Below, in pieces: positions 6,830 through 21,282 of a stretch of 21,521 bases of DNA; position 1 is the first letter of the stretch; the number at the start of each line of letters is the position of its first letter. The notes beneath the pieces are model-generated. The model was not told the origin of the DNA and made no database searches. It worked only from the letters and a program-made list of their open reading frames with translations. Source of the DNA: Thermoplasmata archaeon (GTDB lineage Archaea; Thermoplasmatota; Thermoplasmata; Thermoplasmatales; Thermoplasmataceae); NCBI GenBank assembly GCA_021797265.1, contig JAJZZZ010000007.1:1-21521 (forward strand). Reading direction: 5' to 3'. The position numbers were made by a program, and so were the translations under genes.

Positions 6830-7117
6830 TTATTTCACCTCTGTTGCCCAGCCACGCTCTAACAGGATTTTCCCCAATTTCTCCGGAACCCTAATCCTCT
6901 CCCCCGCCATGAGCCAGTAATTCTGATCGAACCACGCAATACCAATGGTTTCACGTGCCATCATCGTGATAAGGTCAGGTTCGGGTGGTTTCTGGGAAAT
7001 CTGGGTCGTGGTGCTGAAATTCTTTTGCACATCAACCTGTGGCTGTGGCGTGTCCTGAATGAATGATTCGAGTGCAGGCTGTGCTGCGGGCTTGTGTGGC
7101 GCTGCATTCCGCCTCAT
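6830..7117 (-). CDS. Small protein with GINS-B-like C-terminal segment
   Basis: 95 residues. The first half is Pro/Gln-rich and disordered. The second half (IGIAWFDQNYWLMAGERIRVPEKLGKILLERGWATEV, about 57-94) matches the general shape of the small B domain of archaeal GINS: strands, then V-P-x-x-x-A/G-x-x-L-x-x-R-G-x-A. This is weak pattern matching. Starts by ATGA overlap with the 508-residue protein, with GGAGG 10 nt upstream, so the two are probably made together and may work together in replication. Confidence 0.65.
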   Translation of the reverse strand: MRRNAAPHKPAAQPALESFIQDTPQPQVDVQKNFSTTTQISQKPPEPDLITMMARETIGIAWFDQNYWLMAGERIRVPEKLGKILLERGWATEVK

Positions 7118-8641: not shown

Positions 8642-8818
8642 TCAATCACTCTCCCTCACGGTGAACCTGTAAAATATTGGTTCAACCATTATTTTCTCTT
8701 TAACTTTATTTAATACTGACATATTTAATTCCCCCGATAGCTGTTCTCCGAGTTCTCCATTTAATATTCCACCCCTGTAATATAACCCCTTATTTTTCTC
8801 TTGAACCCCTATACGCAT
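8642..8818 (-). CDS. Short hypothetical protein next to the origin
   Basis: From ATG 8818, 58 residues (MRIGVQEKNKGLYYRGG...), ending 1 nt before the next gene's ATG and containing that gene's SD. A longer frame reaches 9061, but it runs through the iterons, which read as VT-x-VT-x-VT, so the extension is probably not protein. A shorter start at the inner ATG (residue 33) is possible, with GGGGGA 7 nt before it. No domain recognised. Confidence 0.4.
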   Translation of the reverse strand: MRIGVQEKNKGLYYRGGILNGELGEQLSGELNMSVLNKVKEKIMVEPIFYRFTVRESD

Positions 8819-9298: not shown

Positions 9299-11023
9299 TC
9301 AGAGTTCATAAACCCTCCTGTTGTCCAGACTCATGATTGTGAGTGTATCATGACTGCGAGTCATTCCTGTGAAAAATATCCGGTGCTCCTCAGATGGGTT
9401 TTCTTCAAGTTTTTTCATTCCGGAGCCAGACAGATCGGTCACCAGCGCAACATTCCTCACCTCAAGCCCCTTGGATGCATGGATCGTGTCCACACGCACA
9501 ACATCCGGCGGTGTTATTATCTTGCCCAGCCAAGGCTCCATGACTGTTTTCTTGTTGACTGACACCTCAAGCCCTCTGTAGAGATCCGCTGCAGTCATTG
9601 GCTTCTGCAGGATGTACTCTGTTGAGAACTGCCCGTAAAGACCTGTGGAATACTGCCTGATGACCTTATCCCCATTGCCGCTGGTGAGGTCTGACTTCAC
9701 GCCACGGGCAAAATAGTGCGTTGGCAGGTACTGGGCCAGAATGGTTAGGTCTCTGAGGTCATTGTGCGGATACCGGGCAAGCGCATTGTTGACGGCAATC
9801 AGGTCATTATCCCAAGGCGACAGCCACCTGTGCCTGTCATTGATGGGCAGGAACGGCACGCCAAGCGACATGAGTGTGGAGCCGATCCTTCTGGCCGTGA
9901 ATTTGGTGCGGCACAGTATCCATTTGGCACCCTCAAGCCTGAGAAACAGGTCGATGGGCTGCCTGAACACTTTCCCCTCTGTACCATTCCCGGTGTATTT
10001 CACGTTCTCATGCTTGTCAACCCTGCTGACAAGCATATCCGAGAGGCTCTTGATGGATTCAGGCAGCCGCCATGATTTTGTCAGGTGGAACACCCTGTAC
10101 CGATCTCTCCTAGCAAGAAGCTCCTCTACGCTGGCGCCCCTGAATGTGTAGATTGTCTGCATGTCATCCCCTGCCAGCACAAGGGAATCCGCAACCTCGG
10201 CAATCTTGTCCACTATCCGCCACATGAGCGGCGTCAGGTCCTGCGACTCATCCACTATGAGCAGGGGCACCGGGTGGAACTCAAGGTTGAGCCCCTCTGT
10301 GAGAATGTCTATGTAGTCATGCTTCCCGGTGCTCTCCTTCATCTTCTCATACTGCTCCGCAACATACCCGACGTCAAACTCTGATGTCTGGAATAATGCG
10401 TCAAGCGTTGCCTGCGGCACACCGCTCTTCAGAATGTAATAGGCTTCAAGGAACCGTGAGAAGTCATCCTCGCCGTCCTGTTCAGCGTCATAGGAGTTGG
10501 GGTCATCAGTGGTGCTGAACCCCATGGCTCTGGCAAACTCCTTGAGGTCTTTGCTGCCAAGGTAATCGCTGTGCTCATCCACCGGGGAATATTTCCATCC
10601 CAAGAATTTGGAAAGCACCGAGTGGAACGTTCCGACCATGGCTCCCTTGGGCAGGGCGAACCTGTTGCGTGCATCCTGAGCCATGCTCTTGCTGTACGTG
10701 AGGTACATTATCCGGTAAGGCGACCCGCCCTGCTCCAGATACTGCTTTATGAGTGAATTGATGGTGTAGGTCTTTCCAGTGCCGGGGCGCCCAAAGATGA
10801 TATTTCTCCGGTCAAGCTCAGCGAGATGGAGCACCCTCTGTATTTCAAGCGCTGCCGTCAGTAGCCACCGTTCCTCTGGTGTTTCCTCTGCAGGTCGGAG
10901 AAATAATCGGCGCGATGGTACTGCCTCATGTGCGCCTTTAGTTCCCTGCCTGAACTGAATGTCACCACACGCCCCAGCTTCATGCACTTGTTGCAGACGT
11001 GTGCAGGCCTCATTTCTTCGCAC
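9299..11023 (-). CDS. UvrD/Rep-type superfamily 1 DNA helicase
   Basis: Complete SF1A motif set (numbering from the longest frame): Walker A GRPGTGKT (78-85), then TFHS (motif Ic-like), LLIVDESQDLTPL (motif II), LAGDDMQTIYTFRGA (III), LTKSWRLPESI (IV), VDTIHASKGLE (V) and RIFFTGMTRSHDTL (VI). ATP-driven 3'-5' unwinding is expected for the family. The frame is drawn to GTG 11023, but its first 54 codons overlap a clear zinc-finger gene in another frame. The true start is probably CTG 10861 or GTG 10834, giving about 511-520 residues, short for UvrD (about 700). Last gene of the 12145 operon; likely the replication helicase of this element. Confidence 0.93.
   Translation of the reverse strand: MRRNEACTRLQQVHEAGACGDIQFRQGTKGAHEAVPSRRLFLRPAEETPEERWLLTAALEIQRVLHLAELDRRNIIFGRPGTGKTYTINSLIKQYLEQGGSPYRIMYLTYSKSMAQDARNRFALPKGAMVGTFHSVLSKFLGWKYSPVDEHSDYLGSKDLKEFARAMGFSTTDDPNSYDAEQDGEDDFSRFLEAYYILKSGVPQATLDALFQTSEFDVGYVAEQYEKMKESTGKHDYIDILTEGLNLEFHPVPLLIVDESQDLTPLMWRIVDKIAEVADSLVLAGDDMQTIYTFRGASVEELLARRDRYRVFHLTKSWRLPESIKSLSDMLVSRVDKHENVKYTGNGTEGKVFRQPIDLFLRLEGAKWILCRTKFTARRIGSTLMSLGVPFLPINDRHRWLSPWDNDLIAVNNALARYPHNDLRDLTILAQYLPTHYFARGVKSDLTSGNGDKVIRQYSTGLYGQFSTEYILQKPMTAADLYRGLEVSVNKKTVMEPWLGKIITPPDVVRVDTIHASKGLEVRNVALVTDLSGSGMKKLEENPSEEHRIFFTGMTRSHDTLTIMSLDNRRVYEL
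10858..11013 (-). CDS. C2H2 zinc-finger protein, 51 residues, overlapping the helicase frame
   Basis: Frame MRPAHVCNKCMKLGRV... with Cys7-x2-Cys10-x17-His28-x4-His33 (LKAHMRQYH), followed by a basic tail (LQRKHQRNGGY). ATG 11013 overlaps the upstream stop as ATGA, with GAGG 10 nt before it, the usual spacing here. The classical finger makes this frame more credible than the helicase frame over the same bases. Probably a DNA-binding accessory of the helicase operon. Confidence 0.65.
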   Translation of the reverse strand: MRPAHVCNKCMKLGRVVTFSSGRELKAHMRQYHRADYFSDLQRKHQRNGGY

Positions 11024-11205: not shown

Positions 11206-11670
11206 TCATCTTTTATTTTCACCTTCCTTGGGAACAAAAGCCCTTATTTTGCTGTCATAATGGAACCCGGCAACCTTCATTGCGTCCCTGAGAACATTGA
11301 AGTTGCCCTCCTTCAGGTACTTCGTGGTTTCATAGCTGCTGCCTTTCCTCACCAGCCCGTACTTTTCAGTGAGCTTGTCCAGCAACTCCTTTCTTTTTGC
11401 TTCACTGAGTTCCACAGGCCCATCATCTGCCTTGGCATGCTGTGGTTCCCCGGTAGCTGACTGCACAACCTCGCCTGTGGTGCGGTTCTGTTTCCAGTAC
11501 ACAAAAGGCGATGTCATTTTCTCAAAGAATAACCTGAGCTTCTCGGCATTCACAGAACCATCCTTGATCTTCAGAAAATCATAGACCATGGCATAGTGCC
11601 GGTTCAGGTACTCCATATATTCCAACTCATCCTGCGGTATTCCGCTTATGCTTACCTCTGTCGCTATCAT
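11206..11670 (-). CDS. Hypothetical protein, 154 residues
   Basis: An acidic helical N-terminal part (DELEYMEYLNRHYAMVYDFLK) is followed by a polar linker at about 68-86, then a helical region (LSEAKRKELLDKLTEKYGLVRKG). The C-terminus FNVLRDAMKVAGFHYDSKIRAF resembles the small domain with L...G-x-x-Y/F-D-x-x-x-K/R-x-W/F found at the ends of some phage replication proteins (DUF5710-like). That resemblance is tentative. ATGA overlap with the zinc-finger gene before it. Confidence 0.65.
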   Translation of the reverse strand: MIATEVSISGIPQDELEYMEYLNRHYAMVYDFLKIKDGSVNAEKLRLFFEKMTSPFVYWKQNRTTGEVVQSATGEPQHAKADDGPVELSEAKRKELLDKLTEKYGLVRKGSSYETTKYLKEGNFNVLRDAMKVAGFHYDSKIRAFVPKEGENKR

Positions 11671-11972
11671 TGTTCTTCTCCCCCCATAAATTGCTCCGCC
11701 ATATCCTCTCGACCAATGGCTGTAAAATAATCCCTGCGGTGTGTGGCTATAAGATACCTCGCTGCCAGCGGGTTGGGCTTTATCCCGAACAACTCATAAT
11801 GAGCGCCCATCAGGTGCCCGACAAGTGTCCGTGGATCGTCAGTCCTGTAATGGCATCCTTTTATCTGGCAGTAGTACACAGGTGGAATTGAGTCAGCCAT
11901 TACCCGGTAATACTGCCATATGTCAGTTTTGTGCTCTTCTCTGGCACGCAGCGTGTCACCGGCAAAGATCAT
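11667..11972 (-). CDS. C2H2 zinc-finger protein, 101 residues
   Basis: Cys35-x4-Cys40-x12-His53-x4-His58 is a textbook C2H2 finger (CQIKGCHYRTDDPRTLVGH...). The helical tail contains LAARYLIATHRRDYF. Begins by ATGA overlap with the ribbon-helix-helix gene and ends by ATGA overlap with the next, so it is tightly coupled in the operon. An inner ATG at residue 25 is possible but would lose the overlap. Confidence 0.75.
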   Translation of the reverse strand: MIFAGDTLRAREEHKTDIWQYYRVMADSIPPVYYCQIKGCHYRTDDPRTLVGHLMGAHYELFGIKPNPLAARYLIATHRRDYFTAIGREDMAEQFMGGEEQ

Positions 11973-12178: not shown

Positions 12179-12253
12179 CTTTGATCGATACCCTGCATGG
12201 TCACATGATTGCATGACTGGTTCACAAGAAACACCGTGGTATGCCTGAAACGC

Positions 12254-12290
12254 AAAAAGGGGAAGCCCGCATATTGCGAACTTCCCCTTT
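12254..12290 (-). terminator. Terminator of the long small-gene train
   Basis: Minus strand AAAGGGGAAG (12290-12281) pairs with CTTCCCCTTT (12265-12256). Inside, CGCA-ATA-TGCG adds an inner stem. A T5 run follows. It lies about 40 nt after the last stop of the 21513-12332 train, with only the helicase-operon promoter beyond. The rest of 12291-12331 is A/T-rich without a gene. Confidence 0.75.
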
Positions 12291-12331: not shown

Positions 12332-12781
12332 TTAACTGAACGTGTCCGGATCTATCGGCCCCCCCGGAGTCCAAATGCCCCTCGCTTCATTTATCTCATC
12401 AGTGATCTGGTTCCCCAATTCAACGATCATTCTCGCTATATCTTCTCTTGGGGACGCCAGTATCAGCTTTATGTTCTCACATTGTTCATTGAGGAGCAGT
12501 TTGAGGTCCTTAAGGCTGTTCCGGACACTCTGTTTCTTTGCTGTTTCAAGTGCTTGTGTGGCAAGACTGATCATCTTGCCGAAATATTCATCAATGTCCT
12601 TTTCTTCCACCCGGTCATATCCGGGCTTGTCGATATTTAGCTGGAACCATGTCCAAGCCAGAATCGACTTTATGTTGTTATATAGTTCCCTAAGTTCCTC
12701 GATTTTCGGGTCGACTGTCATCAGCCCGAAATTTGCTGCCACAGCCGTATCTTTTCCAGTTATCCTGTCAAAGAACTTCAT
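12332..12781 (-). CDS. Hypothetical helical protein, 149 residues
   Basis: Mostly long amphipathic helices (KIEELRELYNNIKSILAWTWFQ, MISLATQALETAKKQSVRNS, LKDLKLLLNEQCENIKLIL) with a short Gly/Pro tail (GIWTPGGPIDPDTF). No signal or membrane segment. The start overlaps the end of the preceding gene by 14 nt, the only gene in the train without a leader of its own apart from the two nearest the right edge. Function unknown. Confidence 0.7.
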   Translation of the reverse strand: MKFFDRITGKDTAVAANFGLMTVDPKIEELRELYNNIKSILAWTWFQLNIDKPGYDRVEEKDIDEYFGKMISLATQALETAKKQSVRNSLKDLKLLLNEQCENIKLILASPREDIARMIVELGNQITDEINEARGIWTPGGPIDPDTFS

Positions 12782-13211: not shown

Positions 13212-13225
13212 TCTTTTCTAACTCC

Positions 13226-13235
13226 TGCCGTAGCA
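13226..13235 (-). promoter_or_regulatory. Leader hairpin, UACG loop
   Basis: Minus strand TGC-TACG-GCA directly followed by GGAG. Stem 3 bp, UNCG-class loop. The TTTTGTAGCC box lies about 40 nt further upstream (near 13274-13283) rather than adjacent. Confidence 0.6.
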
Positions 13236-13283
13236 TTATTAGATACAGAATTGTGTATAAAATAATTGCCCGGCTACAAAAAA

Positions 13284-13631
13284 TTAATTCAGTATCTGGA
13301 GCCTCTCGGCATCCCTCTCACTGAACGCCACAACCTTTTCCTTATCCTTGCTGCCGTCTTTTTCCAGTGTGTAAATCAGCAAAGTGCGCTCACCGATGCC
13401 GTGAAACTCAAGCTTGACTGTCTCGTATTTCTGCCCGTCAAGCATCACGGTGACGGGTTTACCATCAACCGGGATCCATCTCAGGGTGTGAAATTTATCC
13501 ACAGTCTGCTTCAGTTCCTGCACATCGTTAAGCCGCTCTATGAAATTCTTTACACGCCGCTGCATTCTCATCATCCGTGCATCAAGTGCTGGCCGCTCCA
13601 GTGTTTTTCCGATATGTTCCTCTACTCTCAT
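13284..13631 (-). CDS. Hypothetical protein, 115 residues
   Basis: A basic helical N-terminal half (ARMMRMQRRVKNFIERLNDVQELKQTVDKF) precedes a beta-rich C-terminal half (VTVMLDGQKYETVKLEFHGIGERTLLIYTLEK). The frame opens at 13658, but those codons are the hairpin leader, so ATG 13631 after GGAG is the start. Function unknown. Confidence 0.7.
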   Translation of the reverse strand: MRVEEHIGKTLERPALDARMMRMQRRVKNFIERLNDVQELKQTVDKFHTLRWIPVDGKPVTVMLDGQKYETVKLEFHGIGERTLLIYTLEKDGSKDKEKVVAFSERDAERLQILN

Positions 13632-13641
13632 CTTCTCTCCT

Positions 13642-13653
13642 GCCCTTACGGGC
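13642..13653 (-). promoter_or_regulatory. Leader hairpin GCCC-GTAA-GGGC
   Basis: 4-bp stem, GNRA loop, preceded by TTTTGTGG and followed by AGGAG for ATG 13631. Same sequence as at 18340. Confidence 0.75.
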
Positions 13654-13667
13654 CACAAAATAAAAAT

Positions 13668-13997
13668 TTATCCGTAGACAAGCTCACCAAAGAGAGAATA
13701 CTGCACCAGTGCGTCAACGTCATTGGCATCCCAGTTCCCAAGGTCCATAAACCCTGTAAGGAGGTAATGCCCGGCAGCGATCTCTTTCATCATAATATCG
13801 TAGCCCTTCACCAGCATTTCCATATTCACGGTATGCTGCTTTATGTTCCCGATATCTGCGTATTCCTCAAAGATAAATTCGCATTTCCGGTAATTCCACC
13901 CTACACAGGTGAGCGATGGGGTTGAGGCCTCTGGATAATTCTCCATCAACTCGCTGACTATTCTCTCTTTCTCTTCTTTACTAAATTTTATTTCCAT
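13668..13997 (-). CDS. Hypothetical protein, 109 residues
   Basis: Charged helix at the start (KEEKERIVSELMENYP), then CVGWNYRKCEFIFEEYADIG and a C-terminal part with AAGHYLLTGFMDLGNWDANDVDALVQYSLFG. Two Cys (CVGWNYRKC) could be structural. GGAGGAG precedes ATG 13997. No family recognised. Confidence 0.7.
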   Translation of the reverse strand: MEIKFSKEEKERIVSELMENYPEASTPSLTCVGWNYRKCEFIFEEYADIGNIKQHTVNMEMLVKGYDIMMKEIAAGHYLLTGFMDLGNWDANDVDALVQYSLFGELVYG

Positions 13998-14007
13998 TTT
14001 TTCTCCT

Positions 14008-14017
14008 CCCTTTCGGG
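14008..14017 (-). promoter_or_regulatory. Leader hairpin CCC-GAAA-GGG
   Basis: 3-bp stem, GAAA loop, preceded by TTTTGTA and followed by AGGAG for ATG 13997. Confidence 0.7.
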
Positions 14018-14033
14018 TACAAAATATTAAAAA

Positions 14034-14330
14034 TTAGCAAATTTCTATCTGTTCCATTTCAGCCCCGGCATCCCATACGGGCCTGAGATGGTCATTGGTT
14101 CCCCTGTTTATAATGGTTCCAGCAAGGGAATGATATGTGTCGTCCTCTCTGTATAATGTCACACAAAATGACATTGGCGATACATATTCTGCTTCCCTGT
14201 TGATATCTATTGTCCTGCTGGTGCGCTCATCATAAAACTCAATCTCTGACCTGTCTCTGTAAGTCAGGGACCTGAGAATCTCATCCACCACCTCAAGCGG
14301 GTCATTGGCCGTTGCTTCAAAATAGTCCAA
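14034..14330 (-). CDS. Hypothetical protein, about 98 residues
   Basis: From TTG 14330: MDYFEATANDPLEVVDEIL..., a small acidic alpha/beta protein with strands RSEIEFYDERTSRTIDI and FCVTLYREDDTYHSLAG. The longer GTG 14342 start is excluded because that GTG is inside the GGAGTG SD itself. TTG lies 11 nt after GGAG. Function unknown. Confidence 0.65.
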   Translation of the reverse strand: MDYFEATANDPLEVVDEILRSLTYRDRSEIEFYDERTSRTIDINREAEYVSPMSFCVTLYREDDTYHSLAGTIINRGTNDHLRPVWDAGAEMEQIEIC

Positions 14331-14345
14331 TTTTCTTTTCACTCC

Positions 14346-14357
14346 TGCCTTCCGGCA
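14346..14357 (-). promoter_or_regulatory. Leader hairpin TGCC-GGAA-GGCA
   Basis: 4-bp stem, GGAA (GNRA) loop, directly followed by GGAG. The upstream box here reads TTTTATT. Confidence 0.75.
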
Positions 14358-14368
14358 ATAAAATATTT

Positions 14369-14560
14369 TTACTTTTTCAGTTTCTTGATCAATTCATCCA
14401 CTCTGCCGTTATCAAGGGACTTTAGCCAGTCAGACACGTTTCCGTGCCTTTCATTCATACGCGCCCCAAGCTCCTTGTAGGCGCTGTTCATGAACCGCGT
14501 ATCGTAGCCATTCCTTGATAACAGACTCAGCAGATAATTCACCTGTTTCTCTGTTGCCAT
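14369..14560 (-). CDS. Short ATEKQ-type protein, 63 residues
   Basis: MATEKQVNYLLSLLSRNGYDTRFMN... is of the A-T/S-x-K-Q-x-x-Y/L-L-x-x-L type seen in short phage and actinobacterial proteins and in small helical tails of DNA-related proteins; function unknown. The C-terminus is helical (VSDWLKSLDNGRVDELIKKLKK). The seven codons upstream of ATG 14560 are leader sequence. Confidence 0.7.
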   Translation of the reverse strand: MATEKQVNYLLSLLSRNGYDTRFMNSAYKELGARMNERHGNVSDWLKSLDNGRVDELIKKLKK

Positions 14561-14565
14561 TTTTT

Positions 14566-14576
14566 CACCCCTCGGC
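14566..14576 (-). promoter_or_regulatory. Degenerate leader hairpin
   Basis: Minus strand AGCCGAGGGGT: a weak stem with one G-G mismatch where others have a clean one, preceded by TTTTTGC and followed by GGGGTG instead of AGGAG. Confidence 0.4.
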
Positions 14577-14604
14577 TGCAAAAATTAGGGTATCCTCTGC
14601 CCCA

Positions 14605-14997
14605 TCACTCGGTTCCCATTTCGTACAGGTCATCCGGTGAATTGGGCAATATGTAAAGTGATAGATACCCTTCTTCTAACATTCCCTCATGCGCCCTTAC
14701 CGCTTCCTTGAGATCCCCGAATGTAACATGCAGGTGGCTCATCCAAGACAGATTCTGGTACTTTATGAGGAACCTTGAATCATCAATCGTGTCCCCTCTG
14801 ATAATAACCGCTGTTCCATTCCAAGGGATATCATCCTTTATTTTGAGAAATTCCTCATATGTGATGATCTCCCCCTCGCGGTATATCCTGCGGACCTCGG
14901 TGTAATCTGCAATTTCCTTTACCAGTTTCGCTGCCTCTTCATAGCTCACTCCCACTTTCATCGTAAGCTCTCCAGACAATAAGGTCTCACTGCTCAC
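14605..14997 (-). CDS. Hypothetical protein, about 130 residues
   Basis: Alpha/beta protein: YEEAAKLVKEIADYTEVRRIY, TAVIIRGDTIDDSRFLIKY and HLHVTFGDLKEAVRAHEGML. ATG 15006 abuts GGAG with no spacer, whereas GTG 14997 is 9 nt away, the normal spacing in this train, so I choose GTG. No family recognised. Confidence 0.65.
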   Translation of the reverse strand: MSSETLLSGELTMKVGVSYEEAAKLVKEIADYTEVRRIYREGEIITYEEFLKIKDDIPWNGTAVIIRGDTIDDSRFLIKYQNLSWMSHLHVTFGDLKEAVRAHEGMLEEGYLSLYILPNSPDDLYEMGTE

Positions 14998-15011
14998 TTT
15001 TTTCATCTCCT

Positions 15012-15021
15012 GCCTTTCGGC
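15012..15021 (-). promoter_or_regulatory. Leader hairpin GCC-GAAA-GGC
   Basis: 3-bp stem, GAAA loop, preceded by TTTTTGCA and followed by AGGAG. Same core as at 21003. Confidence 0.7.
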
Positions 15022-15029
15022 TGCAAAAA

Positions 15030-15338
15030 TTAGTTACGGTATGTCACTGGCTCCACGATCTCTATGTATTTCCTCTCCCAGATTGGTCTCTCTCTGGCAA
15101 TATCCCTGAACCATCCACTGAAATAGCCAGTGTAAAGGCCAACAAGCCTGCCTGCCCCATAGATATGCCCATGGTAGCTGGCAGCCCTCTGCCCATTCCT
15201 GTACTTTTCCAGCACATGGTGGTCATCCATAAATCTCTCAAATTCCGGTGAGTCGGCGTCCATAGTGATCCTGTAATACTCGGAGCCCTCAACATCCCTT
15301 GTTGTGGAAAAAACCCTCTCCACAATTGTCACTTTCAT
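15030..15338 (-). CDS. Hypothetical protein, paralog of the 15388-15708 product
   Basis: 102 residues: MKVTIVERVFSTTRDVEGSEYYRITMD..., then SPEFERFMDDHHVLEKYRNG and YFSGWFRDI. It aligns end to end with the neighbour (MRVEVCELHRNNTRDFEGYEY..., SPAFLKYLDDFHVKDKYLN, YFNGWVQIF). The frame continues to 15464, but its first 42 codons are the neighbour's 3' end and the leader. ATG 15338 follows the GGGG site. Function unknown. Confidence 0.7.
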   Translation of the reverse strand: MKVTIVERVFSTTRDVEGSEYYRITMDADSPEFERFMDDHHVLEKYRNGQRAASYHGHIYGAGRLVGLYTGYFSGWFRDIARERPIWERKYIEIVEPVTYRN

Positions 15339-15353
15339 TTTTCTCTTTTCCCC

Positions 15354-15365
15354 TGCCTTACGGCA
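15354..15365 (-). promoter_or_regulatory. Leader hairpin TGCC-GTAA-GGCA
   Basis: 4-bp stem, GTAA loop, preceded by TTTTGT. The SD here is GGGG rather than GGAG. Confidence 0.75.
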
Positions 15366-15387
15366 ACAAAATAAATTGAGAATGCTC

Positions 15388-15708
15388 TTAGAAATACTCA
15401 CTTTGCTTATCCTCGTCGATATATTCAATGACAATGGAGCACATCTCATTAGCCATGCTCCCATCGCCCTGAAATATCTGAACCCAGCCGTTAAAATAAT
15501 AATCGGCTTTTCCGATCACATTATCGTCGTGGTCCACTATCTGCCTTGTACTGGTGATCTTCCTGTTCAGGTATTTGTCCTTTACATGGAAATCATCCAG
15601 ATATTTCAGGAACGCGGGGCTGTCCAATACGAATCTTCTCCTGTCATATTCATACCCCTCAAAATCCCTAGTGTTATTCCTATGGAGTTCACATACTTCT
15701 ACTCTCAT
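15388..15708 (-). CDS. Hypothetical protein, tandem paralog
   Basis: 106 residues with the shared features T-R-D-x-E-G-x-E-Y, D-S-P-x-F-x-x-(F/Y)-(M/L)-D-D-x-H-V-x-x-K-Y and Y-F-x-G-W. It diverges at the C-terminus (acidic EYIDEDKQSEYF). A local duplication followed by divergence. GGAG lies 9 nt before ATG. Confidence 0.7.
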   Translation of the reverse strand: MRVEVCELHRNNTRDFEGYEYDRRRFVLDSPAFLKYLDDFHVKDKYLNRKITSTRQIVDHDDNVIGKADYYFNGWVQIFQGDGSMANEMCSIVIEYIDEDKQSEYF

Positions 15709-15721
15709 CTTAATTTTCTCC

Positions 15722-15732
15722 CCCTTTACGGG
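15722..15732 (-). promoter_or_regulatory. Leader hairpin CCC-GTAAA-GGG
   Basis: 3-bp stem with a five-base GTAAA loop, preceded by TTTTGTA and followed by GGAG for ATG 15708. Confidence 0.65.
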
Positions 15733-15746
15733 TACAAAATATTAGG

Positions 15747-16199
15747 TCACTGGGTCATTTTTTCCAGCGCCTTTGTCTTTGGGTTCCACCGTTCATTGCG
15801 CGGGACCATGAGGTCGGCATATTTGCCTTCCATAGGGTAAAGGGTATTCTGTACCAGTCCCCCGGTAAGGAAACTACGGCTCTCTTCTTCGCTCATTATA
15901 ATCATTGAGCTATAGATGTAATCGTCCACCTGCTTTAAAACCGACTCCTCTGTGAATACAGCTTCAAGGTCAAACTCGACTAACTGATTCAGGACGAGTG
16001 AGATCACCTTGACCTCCCCCGTTTCCGGTCTGAAGAACAGATTGAATATCACATCAAAAACCCCGATTTCTCTGTCTGCTTTCATGTAGTAGCAGTAGTC
16101 CTCTGTTTCGATATCCTCTAAATTTGTTGGTCCATAGCGGCTGTTCAGTGTCACCGTTATCCTTTCCTTAAATCTCTCAACGAATCTTTCAAAATCCAT
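15747..16199 (-). CDS. Hypothetical protein, 150 residues
   Basis: Acidic alpha/beta protein: FERFVERFKERITVTL, an aromatic stretch around DYCYYMKADREIGVFDVIFNLFF, then ESVLKQVDDYIYSSMIIMSEEE. The frame opens at 16232, but that ATG is inside the long leader hairpin (GCATAGG), so ATG 16199, 10 nt after GGAG, is the start. Function unknown. Confidence 0.7.
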   Translation of the reverse strand: MDFERFVERFKERITVTLNSRYGPTNLEDIETEDYCYYMKADREIGVFDVIFNLFFRPETGEVKVISLVLNQLVEFDLEAVFTEESVLKQVDDYIYSSMIIMSEEESRSFLTGGLVQNTLYPMEGKYADLMVPRNERWNPKTKALEKMTQ

Positions 16200-16215
16200 C
16201 TCTTCTTTTCTCCTG

Positions 16216-16235
16216 CCTATGCTCTCTTGCATAGG
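16216..16235 (-). promoter_or_regulatory. Long leader hairpin CCTATGC/GCATAGG
   Basis: 7-bp stem with hexaloop AAGAGA, preceded by TTTTGTAGT, followed by CAGGAG. Nearly identical to the leader at 20349. Confidence 0.8.
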
Positions 16236-16268
16236 ACTACAAAATATGGGTGTGGGGTGTCCCGTAAC

Positions 16269-16631
16269 TTAGAAATCAATGCCCCGTGGGTTCGTCAGTG
16301 ATTCACCCTGCCTCGCCAGTATCTTATCGAAGCGTTTATCCCAAGCTGCCATCATGAAGAATGCCTTCTCTTTCCTGTAGGAGGTCTGCCATAGCGGCAC
16401 ATACCTCTTATAGTAAGAATCGCCATTCGACTCACGCAGTTGTTTTGCAACAACTTCTAGGTCCACGTCATTCGTAATAATACTTGCGACCAGTTCAATG
16501 GTTTCTCTTATCTTTTGTTTGATTTCATCGACATCCCCCTCAATTTCGTCATCTCCCCATAGCTGATCTGTCTGAATGTCCAAGCGGACATCCATTACTG
16601 CTCTTCTTTCTATTATTTTGTCTACGTCCAT
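16269..16631 (-). CDS. Hypothetical protein, 120 residues
   Basis: Largely helical and acidic in the first half (DEIEGDVDEIKQKIRETIELVASI), basic and aromatic in the second (YYKRYVPLWQTSYRKEKAFFMMAAWDKRFDKIL). ATG 16631 lies 8 nt after GGAG. No family recognised. Confidence 0.7.
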   Translation of the reverse strand: MDVDKIIERRAVMDVRLDIQTDQLWGDDEIEGDVDEIKQKIRETIELVASIITNDVDLEVVAKQLRESNGDSYYKRYVPLWQTSYRKEKAFFMMAAWDKRFDKILARQGESLTNPRGIDF

Positions 16632-16643
16632 CTCATTTTCTCC

Positions 16644-16655
16644 TGCCTTACGGCA
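16644..16655 (-). promoter_or_regulatory. Leader hairpin TGCC-GTAA-GGCA
   Basis: 4-bp stem, GTAA loop, TTTTGT box upstream, AGGAG downstream. Confidence 0.75.
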
Positions 16656-16664
16656 ACAAAATTA

Positions 16665-16922
16665 TTAATAGGATTCGTAAAACCTGATCAGATCCTTATT
16701 TTCTTTCTCTAAACGTGATCCGGTATATGGTTTATACTGGTATGCCAATTTTCTCAGCCCACAGAAAACCATGATCTTTGCTAAGCCATATCCGTCTTCT
16801 GCGCCCTCCACATTGGCCATCCCAGAATTAATGACATCCTCGATATCCTCGTATAGAGCCTTCAGGAATTGTTCGTTGTTTACTATCTCCTTTATTTTGG
16901 ATCTCAGTTCTTCTTTTTCCAT
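16665..16922 (-). CDS. Hypothetical protein, 85 residues
   Basis: Helical, charged: MEKEELRSKIKEIVNNEQFL..., then IEDVINSGMANVEGAEDGYGLAKIM and a basic Tyr-rich end. ATG 16931 touches the GAGG site; ATG 16922 is 9 nt away and is preferred. Function unknown. Confidence 0.65.
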   Translation of the reverse strand: MEKEELRSKIKEIVNNEQFLKALYEDIEDVINSGMANVEGAEDGYGLAKIMVFCGLRKLAYQYKPYTGSRLEKENKDLIRFYESY

Positions 16923-16936
16923 ACCTATCATCCTCT

Positions 16937-16948
16937 GTCCTTTCGGAC
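16937..16948 (-). promoter_or_regulatory. Leader hairpin GTCC-GAAA-GGAC
   Basis: 4-bp stem, GAAA loop, TTTTTGTG box upstream; the SD is GAGG. Confidence 0.75.
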
Positions 16949-16956
16949 CACAAAAA

Positions 16957-17238
16957 TTATTCTGGGTACTCTATGCTGGAAAATTCTTCTCCACCATACA
17001 GGACGCAGGAACAGCTTTCACTTCTCCCATTCATAGCCTCATAATGGGTCACTCCGGTTCCCGTGCAGTAATAGCCGTCATGCTCAGCCACACCATATCC
17101 CTGTATAACCTCGCCTTTCTTGACCAGTTTCTGCACTGTGAGTTGTTCATCCCATCCTGCCCTCTCATTCTTTATGGGCTCTGCAATCGCTATCCTGTCC
17201 CCTATTTTCAGGTCCCTCCTCAATTTCATTTTTGCCAT
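16957..17238 (-). CDS. Hypothetical small beta-rich protein, 93 residues
   Basis: MAKMKLRRDLKIGDRIAIAEPI... with LKIGDRIAIAE (SH3- or OB-like opening), EVIQGYGVAEHDGYYCTGTG and a Ser/Cys pair SESCSCVLYGG. ATG 17238 is 10 nt after GGAG; the upstream ten codons are leader. The preceding gap (17270-17305) is unusually A/T-rich and might hold an extra promoter. Function unknown. Confidence 0.65.
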   Translation of the reverse strand: MAKMKLRRDLKIGDRIAIAEPIKNERAGWDEQLTVQKLVKKGEVIQGYGVAEHDGYYCTGTGVTHYEAMNGRSESCSCVLYGGEEFSSIEYPE

Positions 17239-17253
17239 CTGTTTCTTTCTCCT

Positions 17254-17265
17254 GTCCTTTCGGAC
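17254..17265 (-). promoter_or_regulatory. Leader hairpin GTCC-GAAA-GGAC
   Basis: 4-bp stem, GAAA loop, TTTTGTG box upstream, AGGAG downstream. Confidence 0.75.
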
Positions 17266-17305
17266 CACAAAATATTAAAAATTTAAAGTTTAATTAATTT
17301 TTTAC

Positions 17306-18325
17306 TTACTCTTCCATCCTCGGAGCCAGCAAGTATCTCACGTTAATGTTTTTCTCCCCGCCCCTGCTTGGCATAAGGTAGGATTCTATTATTGTCGGAT
17401 AGTCCTGTTTCAGACTTATCTTTATTTCATCGGCCTTTACTGTTTTCATAATCTTACTGAGGTACTCAGTCGGGTAGGCCGCCTTCCCCGGATTGATTAC
17501 CTTCAGTTCTTTCATTTCGTCTTTTGAAAATACTGTCTCCGCACTTCCATCATCCGATCCAGCGCGGACTGTCACTGCATCTCTGTCAAATTCAATTCTA
17601 ACGCTGTCTGTGATCAGCTCTGCTGTTCTCAGCACGTCTCTGAATTTCTTTGCTGGCAGCACCGCATAGTCTACTGTGCTTATCAGCGGTACTCTTGGAT
17701 CCCTGATGCTTTCCACACTCAGTGTATCCACCGCTGCCTTTATGCTGCCGTTATCTACTGTCAGTTTTCCTCTTGCTTCATTGTTGTATGTTTCAATGTG
17801 CAGGTCTATTACGTCGTCCTTGTTGTATGGCATAAGCTTCATAAGCCGCTCCACATCAAGGCCGACCTTTATCCTGTCAGCTTCTGTGTCATACCAGTAC
17901 TCAATTAGTGAGTTCTTTGGTATTTCTAAGTCCACCATCATTACACTGCCCGGATCGATTACAATAACCGATATGCCGTCTTTACTGAACTTGAACACTG
18001 CTTCAGTGTCCGCTGCCCTGACGACAGCAAACACTTCCTTCAGTGTTTTCCCTGTCAGGCTGACGTTTATTTTCCCCGGTCCATAACTGATGTCTTTCTT
18101 CTCTTTCTTCTCATCGACTTTCACAACGGGCTGGGCCTCCTGCGTTTGGGCAACGACCTTTTCCCTTCCAGTTGTGGTGTCATTCTCGCTCACATCAGAG
18201 TTATCCCCTGCGTCAACGATCTCAACAGCCATCTTCCTGTTATGGTACTCAGGCACAAAGCCCTCGTCGTATTTGGCTAGCTCGTTTTTTACAAATTCTG
18301 GTTTCGTTTCTTTTGTTTCTTCCAT
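17306..18325 (-). CDS. pcn: PCNA-type DNA sliding clamp with N-terminal tail
   Basis: 339 residues. About residues 86-337 form a PCNA: LTGKTLKEVFAVVRAADTEA, FKFSKDGISVIVIDPGSVMMVDLEI, VGLDVERLMKLMPYNKDD, TEYLSKIMKTVKADEIKIS, DYPTIIESYL and the C-terminal RYLLAPRMEE, which matches the archaeal YLLAPRIE ending. PCNA trimers encircle DNA and tether polymerase, ligase and nucleases. Normal archaeal clamps are about 245 residues; here an 85-residue, acidic then Lys/Glu-rich tail precedes the first domain. ATG 18325 is 9 nt after GGAG and no inner start precedes the core well, so the tail is probably real. Confidence 0.9.
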   Translation of the reverse strand: MEETKETKPEFVKNELAKYDEGFVPEYHNRKMAVEIVDAGDNSDVSENDTTTGREKVVAQTQEAQPVVKVDEKKEKKDISYGPGKINVSLTGKTLKEVFAVVRAADTEAVFKFSKDGISVIVIDPGSVMMVDLEIPKNSLIEYWYDTEADRIKVGLDVERLMKLMPYNKDDVIDLHIETYNNEARGKLTVDNGSIKAAVDTLSVESIRDPRVPLISTVDYAVLPAKKFRDVLRTAELITDSVRIEFDRDAVTVRAGSDDGSAETVFSKDEMKELKVINPGKAAYPTEYLSKIMKTVKADEIKISLKQDYPTIIESYLMPSRGGEKNINVRYLLAPRMEE

Positions 18326-18339
18326 ATTGTTTTTCTCCT

Positions 18340-18351
18340 GCCCTTACGGGC
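18340..18351 (-). promoter_or_regulatory. Leader hairpin GCCC-GTAA-GGGC
   Basis: 4-bp stem, GTAA loop, TTTTGTGG box upstream, AGGAG downstream; leader of the clamp gene. Confidence 0.75.
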
Positions 18352-18376
18352 CACAAAATAAAAAGAGAATTGAGAA

Positions 18377-19177
18377 TTAGTCGTCTTCATAGAACATGGC
18401 GTGTGTCGCTGAAAGTGCGAGATAATAATGTCCATTGCCGGTGTTTTTAAATTCCTCGGCATAGACTGCCTGATTATTTACAGGATCATACGTCAGGGAA
18501 ACATCATAACTGCTTCTCCCTGTCAGGGTTATCGCCTGCTTTTTTGCAATAGCCTCTTTCAACTGTGCAAGTTTACGCTGATTATCGTATCCAAAATTCA
18601 TTGCCTTGATCTTGAGCGGATATGAATATCTATAGACAATATCATTCAGGTACTCTTTGCCACTGCTCTTTATGCTGATCAACCTTGGATCGATTGCTCT
18701 TGCTCTTTCGATCTCTTGCTCTAACAGCACACTATTAGGTGTTCCGATAGGGTTATTTAAGGGTAGATCTACATCAAGTATTGAGTGTAAATTTTTGTAC
18801 CCAACTTGAAGTGCTATTTTCATCTCATTTTTCATATCAGTCCACAAGCCGCTCTCCTCAAGCATTGATATTGCCTTTGCCAGTTGCCTGCCCCATACCT
18901 TGTCAATAGGTACGGATGGCAACTCTACGACATCAGCGTACTCCTTGTAATTGATATCATGCCCCCTGTGTGTTGATCCCTTTATCATAATGATAAAATC
19001 ACCACTGGCTGTTTTCCCGATTCTTTCAACGCATTTTTCGCCGTTATTTTTGATGAAGCCAACTTTTCTCTGTCTTTTTTCATAAAGAACAGATAATTTC
19101 TCATAAATCCTCTGTTTATGTTCTTCCATCTCTTTCAGTTGTTCATCTACCAACTTATAAATACGTTCATTTTCCAA
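18377..19177 (-). CDS. Hypothetical protein, 266 residues
   Basis: An N-terminal coiled-coil-like helix (KLVDEQLKEMEEHKQRIYEKLSVLYEKRQRK) is followed by an alpha/beta body with FIIMIKGSTHRGHDINYKEY, LLEQEIERARAIDPRL and YRYSYPLKIKAMNFGYDNQR. It ends in a strand-rich acidic segment. No signal, membrane helix or catalytic motif seen. TTG 19177 lies 10 nt after GGAG. Sits between the clamp and the DUF932-like gene, so a replication-related role is conceivable but unsupported. Confidence 0.7.
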   Translation of the reverse strand: MENERIYKLVDEQLKEMEEHKQRIYEKLSVLYEKRQRKVGFIKNNGEKCVERIGKTASGDFIIMIKGSTHRGHDINYKEYADVVELPSVPIDKVWGRQLAKAISMLEESGLWTDMKNEMKIALQVGYKNLHSILDVDLPLNNPIGTPNSVLLEQEIERARAIDPRLISIKSSGKEYLNDIVYRYSYPLKIKAMNFGYDNQRKLAQLKEAIAKKQAITLTGRSSYDVSLTYDPVNNQAVYAEEFKNTGNGHYYLALSATHAMFYEDD

Positions 19178-19193
19178 TTTCTATTCTCTCCTG

Positions 19194-19211
19194 CCCATGC
19201 TGCCGCATGGG
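19194..19211 (-). promoter_or_regulatory. Long leader hairpin CCCATGC-GGCA-GCATGGG
   Basis: 7-bp stem. It differs from the 16216 and 20349 hairpins by a compensatory change at the third stem pair (T-A to C-G). TTTTGTAGT box upstream, AGGAG downstream. Confidence 0.8.
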
Positions 19212-19240
19212 ACTACAAAATATATTAAAAAATTAGGGAA

Positions 19241-20332
19241 TTAGTTCCCTTCCAGCATTTTCCAGATGTCCTTGTCTTCTATGATCTTGCCTGCGAGCCT
19301 CTGGAGTTCCGTTCCCTTTTCAGGGGTCGGGCTTGATTCCAGCAGCTTGTTGGCGTAGGATGTCATACTCTGGATCAGACTGTACGCGGTGTTTGATTCA
19401 AGGGCGCCCATGATGATTTTCATGTCGTTCTGGTTCACCTTGAACACTTCGGATGCCTTGACAAAACCAGTGGGATCCACATGGACCTCGTTAAGTTTAT
19501 CCAGCTTGCTAAGGTAGTCCTGAATGTTCTCCTTGTCCAGAGCGTAATTTACCATGTCAGTCACCTGACTGAGTACCAACTCCGACTCTATCACCTTGGT
19601 ACGGTCTGACCAGATGTCGCCCTCTTCGCCTCTGCTGCCAATGTGCCTTTTCCTGAGCGGGTTTTCCCGTATCATTCCATTGGTGCAGACCTGCCTCACT
19701 ATCAGAGGGGCCACCTCGAATGCCGTATATCCAACTTCGCTATTTTTCACGGACACTCCGAGCCAGTACTTATCCTTGGGGTTCGATGGCAGCGTAACCT
19801 CGCTGTTTTCGTCATACACCGTATAGCTCATGCTCTGCGGTGAGACGTAAGCGTGGGCCATTCTCATCTGGTGACCGGTCTCCTTGACCTTCTGCGCAAC
19901 GGCTTTAAGAAGACCCATTGCCACATCATAGTTGTCTATGACGCGGTACTTGTCAGATAACAGTCCAATCAGTTCATTGTTGAACTGCCTGACCAGCACC
20001 ACCTTGGGGTATTCGTGCAGCCAGTAATTGACGTTGGACCCATAGATGTCCGGTTTCCCGGCTATGGATGCCTCATCAAGTATCCTGTCGTAATACTCCT
20101 TGCGTATGCCTGTCTTCTCTGCTATCTGGCCGTGAGCCCATACTGTGGGCTTCAGGGTCCTTATGTCGCCGTTAGGGGATTGCACTTTCAGCATTCCCCT
20201 CTCCGCAGATATGTCTAAGGTCGAAACTCTCCAGTCCCAACCGTATGCCCTTCTGCTGTCTGCTGTCACTTTCAAACTCTCAAGGAAAGAAGTACTTTCT
20301 TTCCCGAAATATCCTGTCTCTATAGCTTGCAT
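19241..20332 (-). CDS. DUF932-like phage/plasmid protein
   Basis: 363 residues from ATG 20332, 10 nt after GGAG; the eleven codons upstream (from ATG 20365) fall in the leader hairpin. Features of the DUF932 phage/plasmid family: VLVRQFNNELIGLLSDKYRVIDNYDVAMGLL, a central VSVKNSEVGYTAFEVAPLI with IVRQVCTNGMI, then a helical C-terminal third. The biochemical role of this family is not established; it recurs on phages and plasmids. Largest protein of the small-gene train. Confidence 0.75.
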   Translation of the reverse strand: MQAIETGYFGKESTSFLESLKVTADSRRAYGWDWRVSTLDISAERGMLKVQSPNGDIRTLKPTVWAHGQIAEKTGIRKEYYDRILDEASIAGKPDIYGSNVNYWLHEYPKVVLVRQFNNELIGLLSDKYRVIDNYDVAMGLLKAVAQKVKETGHQMRMAHAYVSPQSMSYTVYDENSEVTLPSNPKDKYWLGVSVKNSEVGYTAFEVAPLIVRQVCTNGMIRENPLRKRHIGSRGEEGDIWSDRTKVIESELVLSQVTDMVNYALDKENIQDYLSKLDKLNEVHVDPTGFVKASEVFKVNQNDMKIIMGALESNTAYSLIQSMTSYANKLLESSPTPEKGTELQRLAGKIIEDKDIWKMLEGN

Positions 20333-20348
20333 TTCTTTTTTTCTCCTG

Positions 20349-20368
20349 CCTATGCCCTCTTGCATAGG
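20349..20368 (-). promoter_or_regulatory. Long leader hairpin CCTATGC/GCATAGG
   Basis: 7-bp stem with hexaloop AAGAGG, TTTTTGTAGT box upstream, AGGAG downstream. Confidence 0.8.
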
Positions 20369-20413
20369 ACTACAAAAATATCCCGGCGTGCCTCTTAAAG
20401 GCAGCGTCAGGCT

Positions 20414-20572
20414 TTACTTCTCAGGGGAATGCCTTGGCTGCATATCCACTGTATTCTTCGGGCATTCAGGGTTACCGTATTCATCCCTATAACTGAAGAA
20501 TCTTGTATCCCTGAAGCCCTCAATTCTCATGTATACCTTGCGGATCTTCTTACCGCAATATTTGCATTTCAT
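20414..20572 (-). CDS. Small Cys-containing zinc-binding-like protein, 52 residues
   Basis: MKCKYCGKKIRKVYMR...: Cys3-x2-Cys6 as a zinc knuckle (CKYCGK), with Cys37 and His48 as possible further ligands; basic. ATG 20581 is 1 nt from the SD, while ATG 20572 is 10 nt from GGAG, the normal spacing, so I choose it. It fills the gap between two longer genes and has its own hairpin leader. Confidence 0.65.
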   Translation of the reverse strand: MKCKYCGKKIRKVYMRIEGFRDTRFFSYRDEYGNPECPKNTVDMQPRHSPEK

Positions 20573-20587
20573 CTTATCCATTCTCCC

Positions 20588-20602
20588 CCCGGCAATGCCG
20601 GG
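20588..20602 (-). promoter_or_regulatory. Leader hairpin CCCGGC-ATT-GCCGGG
   Basis: 6-bp G/C-rich stem with a 3-nt loop, TTTTGTAG box upstream, GGGGGAG downstream. Confidence 0.75.
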
Positions 20603-20633
20603 CTACAAAATAAATTAAAGGTTTAGCATGACC

Positions 20634-20984
20634 TTATTCGTCATCCATTTCCTGTTCCAGTTTAGTCCCCATCAGGGTTTTCAGATCGCTGAATTTCTTC
20701 ATTTCCAGCAGATCAAGTGATCCTGCCCTGAGAATATGGTCCAGTGCAGCCTCTGGCGATATTATCTCGCCATGGTCACTCTCGCCTTCCCAGTTTGTGC
20801 CATGCACAAGGACATACTTTCCACTCTTCAGTTTTGTTAAACCCAAGTGGTGTCCTGCGCCCCCATTGGTCCAGTCATGACCATTCCACATGTCCAGATT
20901 CTCGGTGTAGTTCACCATTGCTATCACCCTCTCATTCTCGTCGTAGACCGGTACTTTCACCGGCGGATTCTTATTTTCTGTCAT
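20634..20984 (-). CDS. Hypothetical protein, 116 residues
   Basis: Beta-rich: VKVPVYDENERVIAMVNYTENLDMW, then DWTNGGAGHHLGLTKLKSGKYVLVHGTNWEGE, ending in helices (ISPEAALDHILRAG, SDLKTLMGTKLEQEMDDE). The conserved-looking W-x-G-x-x-W-T-N-G and HGTNWEGE stretches suggest a real family, but I cannot name it. GGAGGTG precedes ATG 20984. Confidence 0.7.
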   Translation of the reverse strand: MTENKNPPVKVPVYDENERVIAMVNYTENLDMWNGHDWTNGGAGHHLGLTKLKSGKYVLVHGTNWEGESDHGEIISPEAALDHILRAGSLDLLEMKKFSDLKTLMGTKLEQEMDDE

Positions 20985-21002
20985 ACTTTCTCACACCTCC
21001 TT

Positions 21003-21012
21003 GCCTTTCGGC
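21003..21012 (-). promoter_or_regulatory. Leader hairpin GCC-GAAA-GGC
   Basis: 3-bp stem, GAAA loop, TTTTTGTA box upstream, GGAGGTG a few bases downstream. First leader of the train in transcription order within this window. Confidence 0.7.
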
Positions 21013-21020
21013 TACAAAAA

Positions 21021-21269
21021 TTAATAGGATGGGAATACAAAAAGGGGATTCTGGTCCTCAGTCATTACCCCCTGCACCTCGGAATCCCCCAGTGTCTTCC
21101 ATCCATAAAAGTTTTGCCCACTTTCATTATCCACAGCACGGAAAACTATGATGCCGCTAATTGGATCGAGCAGCATCAGGTCAATATGCCCTTTCCTGTC
21201 CATCCATTTAACTCTTCTTTCATTTTCCAGTGCCATCTCTATGTCCAATTCATAAAAGTATCCATTCAT
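21021..21269 (-). CDS. Hypothetical protein, 82 residues
   Basis: MNGYFYELDIEMALENERRVKWMDRKG..., then LMLLDPISGIIVFRAVDNE and VMTEDQNPLFVFPSY: a small alpha/beta protein. There is no hairpin leader and no GGAG before ATG 21269, only an A/T-rich 13-nt gap after the upstream stop, so it may depend on coupled translation. Function unknown. Confidence 0.6.
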   Translation of the reverse strand: MNGYFYELDIEMALENERRVKWMDRKGHIDLMLLDPISGIIVFRAVDNESGQNFYGWKTLGDSEVQGVMTEDQNPLFVFPSY

Positions 21270-21282
21270 GGCAACTAAAAAT

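Follow-up and report, generated by a model that had tools for sequence, protein, structure and literature searches.

Repeated start-associated elements are a known kind of feature in viruses. In T4-type phages, stem-loop cassettes called promoter early stem-loops (PeSLs) are said to lie between small early genes and to include a promoter. PeSLs are named in PMC3950731, which also describes, after Sencilo 2013, a motif of halovirus HGTV-1 that precedes most open reading frames (ORFs) on one side of the genome and comes with an inverted repeat. In cluster K mycobacteriophages, the start-associated sequence (SAS) is the 13-bp GGGATAGGAGCCC, and ESAS is an imperfectly conserved 17-bp inverted repeat (PMC3203893). 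Here we describe a series of leaders in a 21,521-nucleotide stretch of contig JAJZZZ010000007.1 from a Thermoplasmata archaeon (the whole stretch is referred to as the window), in which a U-run, a hairpin of variable sequence and an adjacent Shine–Dalgarno (SD) sequence precede nearly every gene of a train of small genes.

Like SAS and ESAS, which are confined to the half of the genome with non-structural genes, about half of them with the upstream inverted repeat and all of unproven function, these leaders are repeats at translation starts; they differ in varying their letters while keeping their pairing, in the preceding U-run and in having archaeal hosts (PMC3203893). A likeness to SAS had been proposed in an earlier, sequence-only reading of the window. 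SAS at up to two mismatches was found 0 times in the window (0.56 expected), and membership of ESAS was rejected, as there is no conserved 17-bp inverted repeat and the 3–9 bp stems differ in sequence. With PeSLs the leaders share a stem-loop between small genes, whereas the promoter that PeSLs are said to contain has no detected counterpart in the Thermoplasmata leaders. The HGTV-1 motif is likewise archaeal, repeated before ORFs and associated with an inverted repeat (PMC3950731); by eye, many of 43 chosen HGTV-1 starts show CGAAA...CTTAAGTA approximately 25–30 nt before the ATG, which looks like a TATA promoter, and CTTAAGTA at up to one mismatch matched the window 3 times against 10.5 expected; membership of this motif was rejected. 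The systems of U-tract 3'-end formation and operon-internal termination by aCPSF1/FttA also place U-tracts between cistrons, but the available excerpts of PMC8716108 and PMC10450193 make no mention of a hairpin and SD behind the U-tract, and the words 'hairpin' and 'stem-loop' are absent from PMC10450193. In T4, RegB cleavage at GGAG and the gene 43 operator hairpin similarly let GGAG and hairpins at viral starts govern mRNA fate, but these are single operators or cuts within the SD, whereas the Thermoplasmata leaders are serial and have drifting stems (PMC3014915). No description of a U-run tag with a free-form hairpin, an adjacent SD and a leaderless alternative in archaea was found in the searches made of open-licence papers, and none of 4227 Rfam families matched the window at gathering score.

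Leaders of the gene train

Leaders are present on the minus strand at 17 of the 18 genes with starts from 21269 to 13211, and all 17 that the sequence-only reading had placed across 13226–21012 were located. Each consists, in order, of A/T-rich bases, TTTT or longer, G-T-(A/G/T)-G or a near variant, a stem-loop, AGGAG or a variant and an A-rich spacer, with a total length of 23–46 nt and one exception of 72 nt:

20985–21020, minus strand: leader 1, T-run, GCC-GAAA-GGC hairpin (21003–21012), AAGGAGG
20582–20610, minus strand: leader 2, CCCGGC-ATT-GCCGGG (20588–20602), GGGAG
20333–20378, minus strand: leader 3 (DUF932-like gene), CCTATGC-AAGAGG-GCATAGG (20349–20368), CAGGAG
19178–19220, minus strand: leader 4, CCCATGC-GGCA-GCATGGG (19194–19211), CAGGAG
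18326–18358, minus strand: leader 5 (PCNA-like gene), GCCC-GTAA-GGGC (18340–18351), AGGAG
17239–17272, minus strand: leader 6, GTCC-GAAA-GGAC (17254–17265), AGGAG
16923–16956, minus strand: leader 7, GTCC-GAAA-GGAC (16937–16948), AGAGG; an alternative earlier ATG at 16931 is possible
16632–16661, minus strand: leader 8, TGCC-GTAA-GGCA (16644–16655), GGAG
16200–16244, minus strand: leader 9, CCTATGC-AAGAGA-GCATAGG (16216–16235), CAGGAG
15709–15739, minus strand: leader 10, CCC-GTAAA-GGG (15722–15732), GGAG
15339–15371, minus strand: leader 11, TGCC-GTAA-GGCA (15354–15365), GGGG
15007–15029, minus strand: leader 12, GCC-GAAA-GGC (15012–15021), AGGAG
14561–14584, minus strand: leader 13, weak, CC-GAG-GG (14569–14575), then GTG-AAAA in place of GGAG
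14331–14363, minus strand: leader 14, TGCC-GGAA-GGCA (14346–14357), GGAG; ATTG after the U-run
13998–14024, minus strand: leader 15, CCC-GAAA-GGG (14008–14017), AGGAG
13632–13660, minus strand: leader 16, GCCC-GTAA-GGGC (13642–13653), AGGAG
13212–13283, minus strand: leader 17, T-run, GTA, long hairpin GCCG...CGGC, AGGAG

A hairpin and SD had been claimed at every one of these sites. This stands for 16 of the 17, each with a clear hairpin, while the leader before 14560 is weak, its perfect stem being only 2 bp long and a GGAG-type SD being absent. The TGC-UACG-GCA hairpin suggested before 13211 did not hold up; this leader folds instead into a long GCCG...CGGC hairpin that abuts the AGGAG and keeps GTAGCC...GGCAGGAG (z -3.3; 2 of 200 shuffles as good). 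A recount agreed that 10 of the 17 loops are GAAA, GTAA or GGAA. Gene 12332–12781, which overlaps the gene upstream of it, has no leader, and none was seen at any of 19 tested starts left of 12.3 kb in the window. Two neighbouring paralogues within the train (15030–15338 and 15388–15708, 37% identity) carry different leader stems, TGCC/GGCA and CCC/GGG.

Folding and covariation of the hairpins

The leaders are a real, structurally constrained class. When whole segments were folded with no choice of stem, 16 of 17 window leaders reached p<0.05 against 300 mononucleotide shuffles, the segment for the gene at 15006 including coding sequence because its automatic start lay downstream. Shuffling the 24 nt 5' of the SD gave single-site p values from 0.0005 to 0.66 and a Fisher p of 1e-9 over the 17 sites. 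Stems of at least 3 bp occur at 6 of 21 control starts, so 3-bp stems are by themselves unremarkable; TTTTG within 24 nt before an SD is found at one of the 21 other window starts (12214, with a 2-bp stem) and TTTTG combined with a stem of 3 bp at none of them. SD-adjacent hairpins of at least 4 bp, at starts or elsewhere, number 26 in the train region, compared with a mean of 10.3 and a maximum of 22 in 200 dinucleotide shuffles. Swapping the 3' arms among the 16 sites whose stems have 3 bp or more left a mean of 3.9 and a maximum of 11 paired inner triplets in 50,000 permutations, against 16 of 16 observed; the stems had been chosen as paired, and with the test restricted to the five distinct triplet pairs p was 0.009.

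The same architecture occurs in gene trains of four Thermoplasmata genomes (G160, which is apparently Thermoplasma sp. Kam2015 on its 226,115-base contig 20, G246, G129 and G001), and a fifth (G275) has it at one site. Pattern searching anchored on the U-run gave 104 sites, 18 of which were removed by hand as coding sequence or for want of a plausible gene; one removal lost a leader before position 485 of contig L081. The 86 sites kept are divided between the window (19), Kam2015 (21), G246 (21), G129 (12), G001 (12) and G275 (1), and an automatic rule assigned 69 to a hairpin form, 8 to no hairpin and 9 to a leaderless form, the 8 including the window's weak hairpin and its very long one. Across all elements, 70 of the 86 sites had leader segments of 18–70 nt, some of them including coding sequence because the automatic start fell downstream. 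Of these segments, 59 folded at p<0.05 against mononucleotide shuffles, with a mean z of -3.3, compared with 8 of 66 32-nt stretches at host genes with an SD (mean z -0.35). By element these were 16/17 in the window, 19/20 in Kam2015, 9/11 in G001, 7/9 in G129, 7/12 in G246 and 1/1 in G275. With the surrounding sequence from -40 to +45 included in the fold, 54 of 66 leader hairpins reached a pair probability of 0.5 or more. An alignment of 12 sites with one stem length (A7) had 48 of 48 cells paired, double changes in two of its four pairs and a covariation score of 0.235 against 0.117 when shuffled, while 'further pair types' were no better than shuffled. A permutation test of 55 hairpins from the catalogue is given no weight as proof, their stems having been picked for pairing.

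Orthologous genes carry the same point between elements. The PCNA-like gene is the only group, among the leader-bearing genes compared, that is present in all five elements (the one in the window and those of Kam2015, G246, G129 and G001), where its leader stems are GCCC/GGGC, CCCTTC/GAAGGG, CCGTA/TACGG, GTTCCCC/GGGGAAC and GTCCCT/AGGGAC, all perfectly paired; the leader of the G129 copy has no GGAG-type SD. Stems that differ and still pair also precede the DUF932-like genes and the pairs L104 19677/L106 1393, L104 15984/L108 9579 and L107 14955/L108 13990. One orthologous pair (L108 7664 and L107 5895) has an identical GCTC-GAAA-GAGC, and another (L108 13118 and L107 14091) is hairpin-less on both sides. 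Different yet pairing stems at orthologues bear out the proposal that selection acts on an RNA structure set against the SD. A covarying leader that recurs before most genes of a train, and is retained by elements with little else in common, is strong evidence for a shared expression mechanism. The window genes concerned are:

17306–18325, minus strand: PCNA-like sliding clamp gene
19241–20332, minus strand: DUF932-like gene (17.6 bits, under the Pfam cut-off of 23)

The 69 hairpins, a catalogue chosen for pairing, comprise 33 arm pairs and 34 loops on stems of 3–9 bp. Among stems no longer than 4 bp, GNRA loops close 26 of 43, and among the longer stems 4 of 26 (Fisher p 4e-4); when distinct hairpins only are counted, the figures are 16 of 33 and 4 of 22 (p 0.026). 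GNRA and UNCG loops, once suggested as a general rule, are not supported as one. Common on short stems and uncommon on longer ones, GNRA loops are distributed as expected if a minimum stability is selected.

Leaderless sites

Some sites carry neither hairpin nor SD. One lies at the head of the window train:

21270–21281, minus strand: leaderless-type site TTTTTAGTTGCC (TTTTT-AGTTGCC) immediately 5' of the ATG of gene 21021–21269

Seven of the nine starts called leaderless have GTYGC or AGTTGC, then at most one base, then ATG, and several G246 genes read TAATTTTTTGTYGC-N-ATG with no SD. Two such genes have hairpin-SD orthologues, the pairs being window 21269 and Kam2015 L104 17318 (45%), and G246 L107 7849 and window 16922 (26% identity, E 3e-7). 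A search for TRATTTTTTGTYGC-N0-4-ATG gave five matches in the 117 genomes of the order, four in the G246 train and one in G114 that looks like chance. Leaderless mRNAs are said to be widely used in Thermoplasma (PMC7531240). A start codon a few bases behind the tag and a start codon behind a hairpin and SD would both make sense if the RNA 5' end forms just behind the U-run.

Spread of the leaders

As the sequence-only reading had suggested, a covariance model (R1) was searched against archaeal genomes; it was built from 12 sites in the window, Kam2015 and G129. Among the same 117 genomes, R1 under strict filters matched 12 at E<=1 and scored well in four, mostly within trains, with 11 train matches in G160 (within 9.3 kb), four in G129 (within 3.9 kb) and one in G246; G275 has one match (E 1.5e-4), on a 4-kb contig that carries a single leader and is not established as an element. 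The remaining eight genomes have one or two weak matches each (E 0.19–0.92), which we put down as chance, six having been read and two judged by gene lists. G001, with divergent leaders, gave no R1 match, and the spread found is therefore a minimum. Among 389 genomes sampled evenly across the phylum, a set overlapping the 117, five had matches at E<=0.05, namely the same four and a marginal G031. R1 had no match in the 75 of 144 kb of HGTV-1 searched, nor in the 80 loci kept of at least 516 distant UvrD loci. Nine single matches elsewhere to a Kam2015-type pattern scored no higher than 26 bits with R1.

Protein searches extended the family. PCNA-like relatives occur in metagenomes and in Thermoplasma sp. 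Kam2015, and a PCNA profile found second PCNA copies in G246, G129 and G001, inside leader-bearing trains. A DUF932-like relative with 67% identity is encoded on L081, a 3.2-kb contig of the Thermoplasmata metagenome-assembled genome YP4.bin84, and the genes next to it have such leaders with other letters: TTATTTTGCTACCC-GCCATG-TGTA-CATGGC-AGGAGG, CCC-AATA-GGG-GGAGG and ACCT-AAT-AGGT. The phage database contained no relatives by megablast and, by DUF932 protein, 226 records all below 60% identity (leaders not checked); the plasmid database gave two haloarchaeal clamps by PCNA (leaders not checked). No relatives were found in viral_contigs by DUF932, UvrD alone, PCNA or a pattern search, and genome_contigs gave none by PCNA and one by DUF932.

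An unnamed protein of ~240 aa (L104 15209–15943, L106 2189–2914 and L108 8834–9541) has 43–47% identity between elements, and its L104 copy has no Pfam match. IMG/VR contigs L144 and L145, which encode distant relatives of it, showed no R1 match at E<1 and no visible leader train. The N-terminus of protein P0132 contains an apparent leader read-through (...VALSKEKWIGRRKKKM), which, judged from the protein only, would fit a stem CTATCC/GGATAG before CAGGAG.

Possible functions of the leaders

For these leaders, repeated and structurally constrained in their architecture, spread over several elements, concentrated in gene trains and lacking TATA-like words, we tentatively favour, at somewhat less than an even chance, a role as an intercistronic signal that sets the mRNA 5' end behind the U-run, perhaps via aCPSF1/FttA. 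The elements of these thermoacidophilic Thermoplasmata, presumed mobile, would be transcribed as long polycistronic units, with a U-run of four or more U between cistrons and, directly after it, G-U-(U/A/C/G)-G-C or a variant. An RNA 5' end would arise immediately downstream of the U-run, the simplest candidate for the cut being aCPSF1/FttA, the U-tract endonuclease of the host, and each cistron would become its own message, either nearly leaderless, with the ATG 3–8 nt on, or beginning with a short stable hairpin followed by the SD. The hairpin may shield the new 5' end and the SD would recruit the ribosome; with stability alone counting at that end, the letters would drift in pairs. In Methanococcus, aCPSF1 binds U-tracts and cuts downstream of a U-rich motif (PMC8716108), and the family (TIGR03675) is over cut-off in four of four host genomes. 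Processing fits best, in our view, of the three roles named by the sequence-only reading. A wider proposal, a 'dice and shield' code in which the U-run-GTYGC tag would turn the output of a few promoters into some twenty independent mRNAs, either leaderless or with hairpin and SD, is possible but doubtful.

Several observations weigh against cutting behind the U-run. aCPSF1 is known for termination and would silence the downstream genes unless it acted partially. Its efficient binding takes a minimum of two U4 tracts and is ~5-fold weaker with one (PMC8716108), and the leaders as listed mostly have one U-run. Conservation of the T-run and G columns is in part a product of the pattern-based finding of sites, T at -4 to -1 in 86 of 86 kept sites being partly imposed by the search patterns. 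U-tract avoidance in the coding sequences of the train was rejected as support for cutting, as T4+ followed by G was observed 43 times against 29 expected from synonymous shuffling. RNase J was likewise rejected as the 5'-3' exonuclease that the hairpin would block, its family (TIGR00649) being over cut-off in none of the four hosts. Leaders of 5–7 nt are borderline as leaderless; PMC7531240 cites a Haloferax study that set the limit at no more than 5 nt. L106 2189–2914 has a hairpin and SD (TGCC-CAAAA-GGCA-GGAG) with no U-run before it and was never among the anchors, so that the U-run and the hairpin-SD are separable either way.

This last site suits the main rival to cutting behind the U-run, in which the leaders act in translation only. 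The transcript would stay polycistronic, the hairpin would insulate the SD from the cistron before it, stop trailing ribosomes or stack on the SD:anti-SD helix, the cistrons would initiate independently, and hairpin-less sites would re-initiate from a stop ~12 nt upstream. At 57 of 69 sites the end of the hairpin overlaps the SD or lies no more than 2 nt from it, most preceding stop codons end in the last 25 nt before the end of the U-run, and an anti-SD is present, with GGATCACCTCC close to the 3' end of the 16S rRNA in the two genomes examined. Folding gives this rival no clear support: predicted SD accessibility was 0.47 with the native and 0.44 with a scrambled hairpin (57 sites, Wilcoxon p 0.11), and the idea that the hairpin opens the SD was rejected for lack of a significant effect. 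The U-run-GTYGC at sites with neither hairpin nor SD would also be left unexplained, and we consider a purely translational role rather unlikely.

Throughout whole trains most genes are preceded by a leader, and the leaders cluster in these loci, as would be expected if a protein encoded by the element or the host bound them and switched the whole train. With stems of 3–9 bp and 34 loop sequences, only the U-run tag and the SD are constant, so a binder would have to read those, and we regard such coordinated control as improbable. A sequence-specific protein site at the hairpin itself, as had been suggested, is unsupported, the stems and loops being variable; an operator hairpin of the MS2/RegA/gp43 kind was rejected because neither loop nor stem identity is conserved, and fixed GNRA recognition because longer stems and relatives carry other loops.

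The leaders could also be short shared joints for swapping genes as expression units, and cassette exchange by stem-loops has reportedly been proposed for T4 PeSLs. Three orthologues, each with a hairpin and SD, do lie in opposite order in Kam2015 (L104 19645, 15943 and 14067) and G001 (L106 1361, 2914 and 3962). The common stretch is only ~10–14 nt, however, and orthologous leaders mostly have different stems, apart from one pair with the same stem, which shows that the leaders are not homogenised between elements; exchange alone would explain neither the pairing nor the placement of the SD, which makes it a very improbable account.

Least probable is that each leader is the promoter or initiator of its own transcript, which would likewise place a 5' end behind the U-run and for which leader 17 offers an embedded TTTTATA, since TATA-like words occur upstream at one of 86 sites (4.3 in nearby coding-sequence controls), which speaks against ordinary promoters though not against ones that lack TATA, and sigma-70-like sites in the window train are at chance level (14 found, 15.6 expected). 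The promoter model was rejected on the absent TATA signal, and no column upstream of -9 exceeded 0.14 bit across the 86 sites. An intrinsic terminator was also rejected, the T-run lying 5' of the hairpin and the SD and A-rich bases 3' of it; a terminator scan listed none of the 17 leaders.

The leaders make it testable how archaeal elements obtain many proteins from long transcripts, whether U-tract endonucleases act in processing besides termination, and how leaderless and SD initiation are chosen between; the Kam2015 contig provides a Thermoplasma genome for such a study. Were the 'dice and shield' code true, archaeal elements would have a new way of expressing their genes, with leaderless and SD initiation under one tag.

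Other features of the window and its relatives

Small minus-strand frames at 10858–11013, 4204–4503, 6504–6755 and 11667–11972, read by eye from the ORF list, have C2H2-zinc-finger-like spacing, and the first overlaps the start of a UvrD-like helicase frame (9299–11023). Large GC hairpins resembling terminators and ending in CCC-TTTT(T)-GC(G/A)T lie at the borders or breaks of leader trains in several elements:

12252–12287, minus strand, window: GGGGAAG...CTTCCCCTTTTTGCG (GGGGAAG...CTTCCCC-TTTTTGC), just beyond the train
8778–8787 and 8707–8715, minus strand, L104: terminator-like hairpins
794–802, minus strand, L105: terminator-like hairpin
15191–15200 and 5215–5224, minus strand, L107: terminator-like hairpins
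14345–14354, 7063–7072 and 6994–7003, minus strand, L108: terminator-like hairpins
840–848, plus strand, L109: terminator-like hairpin

The T-run-GC tail of these hairpins resembles the U-run-G tag of the leaders.

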